The notes under the pieces were generated by a model, which was not told the DNA's origin, searched no databases, and saw only the letters and a program-made list of their open reading frames with translations. The translations under genes were made by a program, and so were the position numbers. Shown here one piece after another: positions 55,676 through 58,965 of a stretch of DNA of 64,000 nucleotides (the first letter of the stretch is position 1; each line of letters starts with the position of its first letter). The stretch is from NCBI RefSeq assembly GCF_013046825.1, contig NZ_CP053187.1, positions 2,514,001 to 2,578,000 of the forward strand, read 5' to 3'. This stretch comes from Turicibacter sanguinis (lineage in GTDB: Bacteria; Bacillota_I; Bacilli_A; MOL361; Turicibacteraceae).

Positions 55676-56635
55676 ATGAATTTTAGAGGGACGATTTCAA
55701 TCAAAAAAGAAAAAAGCATCCTTTTTAAACAATCTTATGGCTATGCTGATGTTGCCAATCAGCGAAAAAATCAACGTGAGACTAAATTTGCGACGGCCTC
55801 AGCGGGTAAAGTTTTTGTTGCGGTCGGTATTTTACAATTGATCGAACAGAAAAAACTTCACTTTGACGATACCATCGGACAGATTCTAACGATTGATTGG
55901 CAACAAATTGATACAACGATTACGATCCGCGAATTATTGACTCATACCTCGGGAATTCCCGATTACTTTGATGAGTCAGTTATGAGCGATTACGATGAGT
56001 TGTGGACAGATTATCCTAACTATAAAATTAGGTCATCTCAAGATTTAATCCCCTTGTTTATTCACAAACCTATGATGTATCCACGGGGAGCGAAATTTCA
56101 ATACAATAATACCGGCTTTGTGGTGCTTGGCTTAATCATTGAAGCCATCACACATCAGTCTTTTGATGAGTATTTACAACAGCATGTCTTTAACGTCGCT
56201 CAGATGCCCTCTACTGGTTACTATGAGCTAGATTGCCTACCTGCAAACTGTGCCAATCATTATGTGTATGATGAAAAACGGCAACGCTATGTGACGAATA
56301 TTTATAGCGTTGATGTAAAAGGAACAGGGGCGGGAGGTGCTTTTACAACGGTAGATGATATTGAAGCCTTCTGGGAAGCGTTGCTTGGGTATCGCCTCTT
56401 ATCAAAAGAGATGACAGATGAGATGCTTCGTGTTCAAGCTGGAAATGATCAAGATCATTATGGCTATGGGATTTGGTTAACAGAGGAGAGCATTCCGTAT
56501 TTTTGTGGAAGTGATCCTGGCGTTAGTTTTATGTCTTCCTATGATGTAAACACTAAAACAATCGTCACACTTTTTAGTAACTTTTCGGATAATGTTTGGT
56601 CTTTACATCGTGAGATTCGAGAATCATTATCATGA
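55676..56635 (+). CDS. Serine hydrolase (class C beta-lactamase/PBP4*-like)
   Basis: 319 residues, start behind AGGGAGGATTG. The nucleophile motif S-x-x-K is SAGK (about 43-46) in 'FATASAGKVFVAVGILQLIE'. The second motif Y-x-N is in 'FQYNNTGFVVLGLIIE', and 'LLTHTSGIPDY' is the usual family landmark. No signal peptide, so it acts in the cytoplasm, probably as an esterase or peptidase and not as an antibiotic-resistance enzyme. It is followed immediately by a decayed metallophosphoesterase gene. Confidence 0.88.
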   Translation: MNFRGTISIKKEKSILFKQSYGYADVANQRKNQRETKFATASAGKVFVAVGILQLIEQKKLHFDDTIGQILTIDWQQIDTTITIRELLTHTSGIPDYFDESVMSDYDELWTDYPNYKIRSSQDLIPLFIHKPMMYPRGAKFQYNNTGFVVLGLIIEAITHQSFDEYLQQHVFNVAQMPSTGYYELDCLPANCANHYVYDEKRQRYVTNIYSVDVKGTGAGGAFTTVDDIEAFWEALLGYRLLSKEMTDEMLRVQAGNDQDHYGYGIWLTEESIPYFCGSDPGVSFMSSYDVNTKTIVTLFSNFSDNVWSLHREIRESLS

Positions 56636-56644
56636 GAAAAAGAC

Positions 56645-57349
56645 GGATATGAATTAAAGATCATCCAAATCTCACATCCCCCTATTCAAGAGGTCGGTTC
56701 CTTAGAGGGGCAAGTCCTCAAACAATTAAAAAAAATCAAACCGGATTTGATTATGATAACGGGAGATTTAGTGAATAATGCCAGGTTTAATGACGTTGAC
56801 GTTTTATCCTTTTGAGAATCATGAGTATGCCATTTTGAATCGAAAATCCAGGAAGCAGGCGTTGTGTTGCTTTGAAATAACAAGATAGTACTTACAAAAG
56901 GGAAGACGCGTATTGAATGAATCGGTGTCAATGATTCCAATTTAATGAAAACCCAAGAAATGGAGGAAACCTTGAACGCGAAGGTGAATCCGGATGCATT
57001 TAGTATTTTAATGTCACACCGACCTGAATATTTAAAGCTGTATGAGGCCTATGACGTTGATTTGGTTTTTTCGAGTCATGCCCATGGAAGACAATTTCTG
57101 TTTCCTCTGATGGGAGGATTAATTGGGCCAAATCAAGGGTTATTTCCCCTCTATACAGCAGGTGTTCACCAAATAAAAAGCACAAGCTTAGAGATAAGTC
57201 GTGGCATTGAAAACAGCCTCATTCTCATTCGTTTTTACAATCAACCGGAACTAGTTTTAATCCTATTATCCTCAGATCCTAGCTTTTTTCAAAAAAACGT
57301 CAGACAATATTCGACTTTTCTTAAAAAAAGTTCTTGCAACTATTTTTAA
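56645..57349 (+). pseudogene. Calcineurin-like metallophosphoesterase (YkuE/YaeI type), decayed
   Basis: Pieces of one gene are spread over several frames. 'LKIIQISHPPIQ' (the expected 'ISDLH' is altered) through 'KPDLIMITGDLVNNARF' is closed by TGA at about 56815. A scrambled middle follows. Then comes a 134-codon frame from 56945 with 'ILMSHRPEYLKLYEAYDVDL', SSHAHGRQF and 'GGLIGPNQGLFPLYTAGVHQ'. The final metal ligands (His-x-His) survive in this last part, but most of the active site is gone. The last codons run into sequence close to the tandem riboswitch units. Confidence 0.85.
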
Positions 57350-57362
57350 ATCGTGCTATTAT
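57334..57362 (+). promoter_or_regulatory. Promoter of guanine-riboswitch unit A
   Basis: TTGCAA (57334-57339), 17 bases, TATTAT (57357-57362). It lies 52 bases ahead of the aptamer. Confidence 0.75.
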
Positions 57363-57413
57363 TTAAGTCCGGAAATAATTAAGTTTATTTCCTACTCCAA
57401 ATAGTTATAATTT

Positions 57414-57482
57414 ACTTGTATAATTGTTAAGATATGGTTAACTAGTTTCTACCCGCGACCTTATATCTCGCGGACTACAAGT
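57414..57482 (+). promoter_or_regulatory. Guanine-class purine riboswitch aptamer, copy A
   Basis: The purine aptamer architecture is complete. P1 is ACTTGTA pairing with TACAAGT; J1/2 is TATAA; P2 is GTTAA/TTAAC with the invariant loop GATATGG; J2/3 is GTTTCTACC. P3 is CCGCGA/TCGCGG with a CCTTATAT loop. J3/1 reads GACTAC, whose C at the ligand-pairing position specifies guanine/hypoxanthine over adenine. An alternative hairpin (57477-57524) uses the 3' strand of P1. Confidence 0.92.
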
Positions 57483-57525
57483 AAAAACTTTGTATGTCCT
57501 CATCATACAATCCTTTTTACTTGTT

Positions 57526-57558
57526 GAACACCGAAATGGCCTTCGGTGTTCTTTTTTT
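57526..57558 (+). terminator. Intrinsic terminator of riboswitch unit A
   Basis: GAACACCGAA/TTCGGTGTTC stem, six-base loop, seven T's. It starts two bases after the anti-aptamer hairpin and does not overlap it. Confidence 0.9.
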
Positions 57559-57651
57559 GATTAGAGAATAGATGAAATGCTTTCATATAAAAAGAACTCG
57601 TAAGGATTGAATAGATTCAAAATATTTCCAAACTTTTTTTCGATAAAAAAG

Positions 57652-57680
57652 TTGCATTTTAGATCATAGCGTGCTATTAT
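57652..57680 (+). promoter_or_regulatory. Promoter of guanine-riboswitch unit B
   Basis: TTGCAT (57652-57657), 17 bases, TATTAT (57675-57680). The -35 lies outside the duplicated block but has the same spacing as in unit A. Confidence 0.72.
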
Positions 57681-57731
57681 TTAAGTCCGGAAATAATTAA
57701 GTTTATTTCCTACTCCAAATAGTTATAATTT

Positions 57732-57800
57732 ACTTGTATAATTGTTAAGATATGGTTAACTAGTTTCTACCCGCGACCTTATATCTCGCGGACTACAAGT
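57732..57800 (+). promoter_or_regulatory. Guanine-class purine riboswitch aptamer, copy B
   Basis: Same sequence and structure as copy A, including the GATATGG loop, GTTTCTACC junction and GACTAC specificity position. Confidence 0.92.
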
Positions 57801-57843
57801 AAAAACTTTGTATGTCCTCATCATACAATCCTTTTTACTTGTT

Positions 57844-57876
57844 GAACACCGAAATGGCCTTCGGTGTTCTTTTTTT
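57844..57876 (+). terminator. Intrinsic terminator of riboswitch unit B
   Basis: GAACACCGAA/TTCGGTGTTC stem and seven T's, identical to that of unit A. Confidence 0.9.
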
Positions 57877-58212: not shown

Positions 58213-58965
58213 ATGGAGGATTTTTCACACAATCCATTAGCAACAAATCATGAAATTTTAGAAGGGATTATTCGATTAGTTCAATTCGATATCTTATTAA
58301 ATGATTACGTGGCATGGCTTGATTTTGAGGGGGATCGTGTCATTATTCCACGTCAAGAACTCGAATTGTATGAAATTAAAAGCACCTTAAATCATTATAT
58401 CGGGATGAAAGTGCAATTTAAAATCATGAGTTATGACGAACAACGACGTGTTTACTTAGCTTCATGTAAAGAAATAAAAGAAGAACGTCGAAACGACATT
58501 ATTGCTCGCTTAAAAGAAGGAGAGTCATTTGAGGCGACGATTACCAAAATTGTCTACTTTGGTGCCTACTTAATGATTGATGGCATTTCAGTTATTTTAC
58601 GTAATCAAGACTTTTCAAATGACTACACAACCGTGGGGGATATTTATCATGAAGGGGATACGATTCTTGTTTCGTTATTAAAGGTGAATGATAATATGAA
58701 AATTAATGTTCAAGCTGTTGAAAAATATGAAACACAATCAAGCATTACCATTGAAGATTTTGAACCCCAAACCGTCGTTTATGGACTTGTTCGTAACGTT
58801 AAATCTTGGGCATGTTTTGTCAATATCGCCCCAAATTTAGATGCGATTTGTCCGGTTCCAACTTATTTTAATGTCAAAGAAGGAATGAAGGTAGCCTTCA
58901 GAATTAATCAAGTTCGATTAGATGAGGGCCGTGTCCGCGGAAAAATCATCAAAATCATTCATTAA
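58213..58965 (+). CDS. S1 RNA-binding domain protein
   Basis: 250 residues, GGGGGGATATATTA ahead. At least two S1/OB-fold repeats are evident. The middle one is 'GESFEATITKIVYFGAYLMI' and the last 'GLVRNVKSWACFVNIAPNLD' through to the C-terminal 'KVAFRINQVRLDEGRVRGKI'. The N-terminal ~80 residues form a related strand-rich module. It is similar to small S1-like proteins in Firmicutes that bind RNA or ribosomes. It is the first intact gene downstream of the tandem riboswitches, but it has its own promoter region and no known link to purines. Confidence 0.82.
   Translation: MEDFSHNPLATNHEILEGIIRLVQFDILLNDYVAWLDFEGDRVIIPRQELELYEIKSTLNHYIGMKVQFKIMSYDEQRRVYLASCKEIKEERRNDIIARLKEGESFEATITKIVYFGAYLMIDGISVILRNQDFSNDYTTVGDIYHEGDTILVSLLKVNDNMKINVQAVEKYETQSSITIEDFEPQTVVYGLVRNVKSWACFVNIAPNLDAICPVPTYFNVKEGMKVAFRINQVRLDEGRVRGKIIKIIH

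Follow-up and report, generated by a model that had tools for sequence, protein, structure and literature searches.

In the gut bacterium Turicibacter, a tandem pair of guanine riboswitch units probably represents a dedicated small RNA (sRNA) gene, whose product of about 190 nt would be a stand-alone guanine riboswitch acting in trans by base pairing and silencing permease mRNAs. The pairing of this RNA with the leader of a pbuG-like permease gene, which stands at another chromosomal site, is, as a prediction from sequence, well supported. An earlier note on the same DNA had described the units as having no gene to control, which holds in cis but apparently not in trans.

Structure of the tandem units

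Within the window, by which the whole analysed stretch of 64,000 nt is meant, two blocks of 207 nt on the forward strand (unit 1, 57352-57558; unit 2, 57670-57876, offset by 318) are identical to each other as read from the sequence, and are enclosed in a direct repeat of 245 nt with 93% identity and a spacing of 318. Both copies match the covariance model of the purine riboswitch, RF00167, over its full length (model positions 1-102), with 71.4 bits and an E-value of 1.3e-10, the gathering score being 37. The earlier description of two identical 207-nt units, each with a promoter-like site, a guanine-class aptamer, an anti-aptamer hairpin and a terminator, has thus been confirmed by the sequence, the RF00167 match and a terminator scan.

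The sRNA of unit 1 is predicted to extend from about 57370 to 57558 on the forward strand, as do all the elements described here. It would begin with a 5' hairpin (57371-57392 in the predicted fold, with one pair changed on both sides), followed by a linker, UUUCCUACUCCAAAUAGUUA (57388-57407), which is almost invariant in the genus and complements the pbuG-leader apical loop. The aptamer (57411-57485, from RF00167) comprises P1, P2 and P3, with C74 at 57475, and the 3' strand of P1 is also, in the fold models, the 5' strand of an anti-aptamer hairpin (57477-57524). The loop UCCUCAU (57497-57503) is invariant in the genus alignment, and an anti-Shine-Dalgarno (anti-SD) segment, AUCCUUUUUACUU (57510-57522), is concealed in the modelled free fold and accessible in the modelled aptamer-bound one. 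The last element is the terminator (57526-57558), independent of the switch, with its invariant loop AUGGCC at 57536-57541. In unit 2, the aptamer and the terminator occupy 57729-57803 and 57844-57876. The predicted fold of the unit RNA has a free energy of -53.6 kcal/mol (z -7.7).

The guanine-type C74 is given by GGACTAC and the canonical J2/3 by GTTTCTAC, both present in the eight units of the genus. The letters of the binding pocket are canonical, and L3 is 1-2 nt longer than usual, with a sequence that departs from the usual one. Judged from these letters, the ligand would be guanine.

Both terminators are strong (57526-57551 and 57844-57869, each followed by T7), and five terminator-like sites were found in the region versus 0.4 in shuffled sequences. 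The anti-aptamer helix (57477-57487 with 57514-57524) stops at 57524, before the terminator stem starts at 57526, and the two share no bases, as had been claimed earlier. With regard to the promoter, a scan gave a promoter-like site with an extended -10 in unit 1 (TTGCAA-17-TATTAT, 57334-57362), and similar hexamers, under the scan threshold, can be read in unit 2 from the sequence and the genus alignment (TTGCAT-17-TATTAT, 57652-57680). The -35 boxes of both units fall outside the identical block. The score of the unit 1 site alone is no better than in shuffled sequences, and the evidence for a promoter is the alignment of these promoter-like hexamers across all eight units of the genus.

Distribution and gene neighbourhood

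Stand-alone units are present in all five Turicibacter genomes compared (the source genome G000, a single contig of 3.0 Mb, and four others, G001-G004), with eight copies in total and one or two per genome. G000 carries six purine riboswitches, namely the two units and four ordinary ones, the latter preceding genes for an NCS2 permease, a pbuX-type permease, formate-tetrahydrofolate ligase (fhs) and a PotB-like ABC permease. The term pbuG-like is used here as a label for the NCS2 permease, which belongs to family PF00860, no finer model having matched. In each of the five genomes, the fhs gene is preceded by a guanine-class riboswitch (L006, L017, L022, L024, L028). The PotB-like permease gene, an unusual member of the regulon, stands directly behind a guanine-class aptamer (L003, L014, L018, L020), and the distance of only about 30 nt between aptamer and start codon points to probable translational control.

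It had also been noted that no purine gene follows the units, and the next gene is indeed one for an S1-domain protein (58213-58965). In three genomes (G000, G001 and G004), the unit or units are preceded by an M42 peptidase gene and followed by the S1-domain gene, a beta-lactamase-family gene and a gene remnant being inserted into this arrangement in G000. Of the two units of G002, one comes after the M42 gene and the other, 33 kb away, lies 5 kb before the S1-domain gene, while in G003 the unit is 3 kb from the S1-domain gene; the genes after the units in these two genomes include those for a methyltransferase and an IS30-like transposase, among others. Since the M42/S1 arrangements differ between genomes, the gene directly downstream of the unit varies. 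An S1-domain orthologue is nevertheless found 0.2-5.5 kb from a unit in the five genomes, and this RNA-binding protein is possibly an RNA chaperone partner, or its position may be mere ancestral gene order.

In frame after the beta-lactamase-family ORF of the window, a metallophosphoesterase remnant was also observed (55676-57349; PF00149, E 3.4e-8 with TGA read as Trp). Up to its end at 57349, the frame contains five TGA codons and neither of the other two stop codons, TAA and TAG; the remnant is most simply a pseudogene, the TGA-only pattern being odd.

The closest match of each G000 copy is the other G000 copy, and the same is true in G001; separate tandem duplication or gene conversion is therefore indicated. 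The identity of the copies, for which recency or constraint had been suggested, can in this way be traced to lineage-specific events. The assembly duplication that had been considered finds no backing: the two copies have different flanks, the 3.0-Mb genome consists of a single contig, and the unit is present again in four further species, so that no artefact can be seen.

Searches with the unit model found no unit in three related genomes of other genera and, outside the genus, matched ordinary permease riboswitches only (eight genomes of the family and order). A mobile or viral origin was rejected, searches of plasmids and phages having given no unit match. The loop 17/19-mer occurs on four other contigs (three viral, one archaeal), where the match to the unit model is limited to those 18 nt and is therefore attributed to chance.

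Conservation and constraint

Within the scope of one genus and five genomes, the aptamers of the units and those of the pbuG, pbuX and fhs riboswitches are about equally conserved. The 80 nt located 3' of the aptamer core, in contrast, show 91% identity between species in the units, versus 60-69% in these three ordinary kinds of riboswitch from the same genomes. Both of the mutually exclusive folds are retained in all species, with 97% of the pairs kept, and pairs changed on both sides are found in the 5' hairpin, in P3 and in the terminator stem. Moreover, no unit differs from the others in the linker UUUCCUACUCCAAAUAGUU, in the loop UCCUCAU, in the 3' strand AUCCUUUUUACUUGU or in the loop of the terminator, AUGGCC. 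A relic would not be expected to show such constraint.

Complementarity to permease leaders

The leader of the pbuG-like NCS2 permease gene, which is itself controlled by a guanine riboswitch, contains a stem-loop whose apical loop, UUGGAGUAGGAA, complements the linker UUCCUACUCCAAAUAG in all five species. The site comes after the terminator of that riboswitch and precedes the start codon by about 85 nt; pairing would therefore have an effect other than simple blocking of the Shine-Dalgarno (SD) sequence, and this effect could be of either sign. The perfect stretches measure 19 nt in G004, 14 in G000, 12 in G002, 11 in G003, and 10 plus 8 around a mismatch in G001. An additional contact, between the sRNA terminator loop and the internal loop of the pbuG stem, extends over 12 nt in G001 and 11 nt in G004, and the order of the elements allows both contacts. 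As regards the docking stem, its arms diverge yet still pair, and its loop is conserved. Thus, as expected for the seed of a trans-acting sRNA, a conserved single-stranded linker is accompanied by a conserved pbuG site in every species.

Duplexes were ranked in a set of 110,076 windows, covering 625 kb of sequence from the five genomes and biased to near-matches, which had been fetched as such. The strongest non-self duplexes were those with pbuG leaders, and the five leaders were all among the top matches, with a few coding-region near-matches between them. The complement of the linker, searched as a 16-mer, was not enriched genome-wide over a reversed control, and pbuG therefore looks like a single strong target of the linker. 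Further, searches with 18-mers and with gapped seeds turned up no conserved site outside the permease leaders, the near-matches inspected lying in coding frames or being non-conserved.

The pbuX-type gene is a good candidate for a target of the anti-SD segment, on weaker evidence than pbuG. Its start region, including the ribosome-binding site, matches the anti-aptamer loop and 3' strand, and the predicted pairing involves SD-like sequence. The duplexes amount to -26.2 kcal/mol in G001 (with one bulge), -24.8 in G004, -23.4 in G002, -21.5 in G000 and -19.5 in G003. Among 255 start regions, a set without those of pbuX from G001 and G004, which were missed by the start caller, pbuX ranked 3, 9 and 26 in G002, G000 and G003 when the segment was taken as it stands in G000, and 8, 17 and 40 when the version of the other genomes was used. 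UUGGAG or GGCCA motifs occur in the pbuX leaders, as in the pbuG leaders, and in none of the five fhs leaders or of the three permease leaders recovered from three unit-less genomes of other genera, these motif comparisons having been chosen after the sequences were seen. The PotB-like leaders do not serve as a control, because the motif table merged the short leader with the coding region.

Just 3' of the pbuX leader terminator, a small hairpin (L012, L016) keeps its loop, GGCCAU, unchanged, and both partners of one of its stem pairs have been replaced (CUAUUU/AAAUAG, CUACUU/AAGUAG). This loop and the terminator loop of the sRNA, AUGGCC, complement each other, and a kissing contact between the two is possible.

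Proposed mechanism and alternative explanations

From the above features we infer that the units are expressed, that their RNA binds guanine and that repression is the sign of its action. Transcription would stop at the unconditional terminator, and guanine would therefore alter the shape of the finished RNA, not its length. In the absence of guanine, the 3' strand of P1 would join the anti-aptamer hairpin, concealing the anti-SD segment; if guanine were bound during transcription, P1 would be kept and the segment released. The folding models agree with such ligand-gated exposure, the anti-SD segment being unpaired at 21-29% in the free state versus 55-90% in the aptamer-bound state, with opening costs of 6.5-10.1 and 0.9-1.6 kcal/mol, respectively. 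Without ligand, the aptamer fold is 9-13 kcal/mol less stable than the free fold by nearest-neighbour energy, so that gating would have to be kinetic, guanine acting during transcription, which is when xpt-type switches are believed to sense it.

The linker, in turn, would dock on the pbuG apical loop, downstream of the pbuG riboswitch terminator, in either state: its modelled access depends weakly on the ligand (1.7-3.6 kcal/mol) and is open enough in both, and the net pairing with pbuG is -6 to -11 kcal/mol in the free state and -8 to -14 in the bound one. In pbuX-type mRNAs, the ribosome-binding site and the start region would be paired by the released anti-SD segment and the UCCUCAU loop. 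The net effect would most likely be the silencing, when guanine is plentiful, of permease mRNAs that escaped their cis riboswitch. We give about even credence to the fuller form of this proposal, a two-layer lock in which the same metabolite is read twice: the cis leader would stop new transcripts, and the free RNA would dock on a purpose-built stem-loop of the escaped mRNAs, exposing its anti-SD seed only when bound to guanine.

The same sRNA and the same pbuG pairing could also work with the opposite sign or direction, the RNA protecting or activating the permease mRNA, or the pbuG stem-loop being a sponge that titrates the sRNA. The position of the docking site, which precedes the start codon by about 85 nt and is away from the SD sequence, and the nearly ligand-independent access of the linker would suit this reading, which we nevertheless consider unlikely: the second segment complements a ribosome-binding site, which usually means repression, and a guanine sensor raising purine uptake at high guanine would presumably oppose the cis riboswitches. 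That the RNA acts mainly through a protein, such as the S1-domain protein encoded nearby, with base pairing as a secondary matter, is quite improbable; the proximity of the S1-domain orthologue to a unit in every genome and the precedent of EutX and Rli55 as protein decoys (PMC8383071) speak for it, but it does not explain why, in five species, the pbuG leader is specifically complementary to the RNA, and the shared location may be ancestral gene order.

It is very improbable, in our opinion, that the units are a cis riboswitch of the ordinary kind, which would act on the S1-domain gene at 58213 by way of read-through. This gene does come next on the same strand, 0.2-0.4 kb downstream, in three genomes; against this, the terminator has no bases in common with the switching helix and is present in either modelled fold, two complete units in tandem would stop transcription twice, and other genes follow the units in G002 and G003. 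Guanine-controlled read-through into 58213, which the earlier note had named as evidence against its own reading, was rejected as the main function on account of the independent terminator and the varied downstream genes. Least credible of all is a functionless relic left by the leader of a lost purine operon, or a sponge that passively binds guanine. The lack of a purine gene after the units in the window would fit either one, yet the genus-wide conservation outside the aptamer, the pairs kept through two-sided changes and the specific target complementarity do not. In addition, metabolite pools normally lie far above the copy number of one RNA, which is a general objection to a sponge.

Among the interpretations put forward in the earlier note, that of a stand-alone guanine-binding sRNA or trans-regulator is therefore the one retained: the unit is kept in five species, is intergenic with its own promoter-like site and terminator, stands before varied genes and is complementary to permease leaders. 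The relic is contradicted by the conservation pattern outside the aptamer, and a pure ligand sponge leaves the invariant linker, loop and anti-SD segments without explanation.

Comparison with known systems

With few exceptions, riboswitches are regarded as acting in cis, and the trans-acting examples found are terminated leaders or protein decoys. The closest relative of the units by structure is the purine riboswitch (RF00167) of the B. subtilis xpt-pbuX leader, with which they have in common the aptamer architecture, the GAUAUGG L2, the UUUCUAC J2/3 and C74, as well as an anti-P1 helix exclusive with the aptamer and a relation to permease genes, which riboswitches of that type regulate. Unlike the latter, the units are stand-alone, with their own promoter-like site, an unconditional terminator, no cis gene, conserved antisense segments and an L3 longer by 1-2 nt. 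Control of an adjacent gene, the mark of cis-regulatory guanine riboswitches, is not found in them, as the downstream genes differ and the terminator is independent of the switch.

The trans-acting SAM riboswitches SreA and SreB of Listeria are aptamer-bearing RNAs which pair with the 5' UTR of another mRNA (PMC8383071). SreA, however, is the prematurely terminated leader of a cis riboswitch, whereas the unit has no conserved cis gene and would be a dedicated gene. Furthermore, guanine would change the shape of the unit RNA and not its termination, and the putative targets are permeases for the ligand's own class, bearing cis switches of the same kind. EutX of E. faecalis and Rli55 of Listeria, B12-riboswitch RNAs which sequester EutV, also act in trans, the ligand deciding whether the protein-binding part is made (PMC8383071). 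The units differ from them in the predicted RNA-RNA pairing and in the lack of switched termination, the terminator hairpin being present in both modelled folds.

Control of one transporter mRNA by both a riboswitch and sRNAs is known from E. coli btuB (PMC11162775). The present case differs from btuB in that a guanine-class aptamer occurs in both the sRNA and the target mRNA. To our knowledge, no aptamer is known in the btuB sRNAs. The openly licensed literature contained the trans-acting SAM and B12 riboswitch RNAs, no guanine counterpart to them and nothing on Turicibacter sRNAs; nor did it yield any dedicated sRNA gene in which a guanine aptamer is combined with unconditional termination and with conserved sites in mRNAs.

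If the proposed reading is true, a riboswitch can turn into a free, metabolite-gated antisense regulator, a compact natural design of aptamer, hidden seed and terminator that is testable with short RNAs in vitro. It also suggests that other orphan purine riboswitches without a gene merit the same target search.
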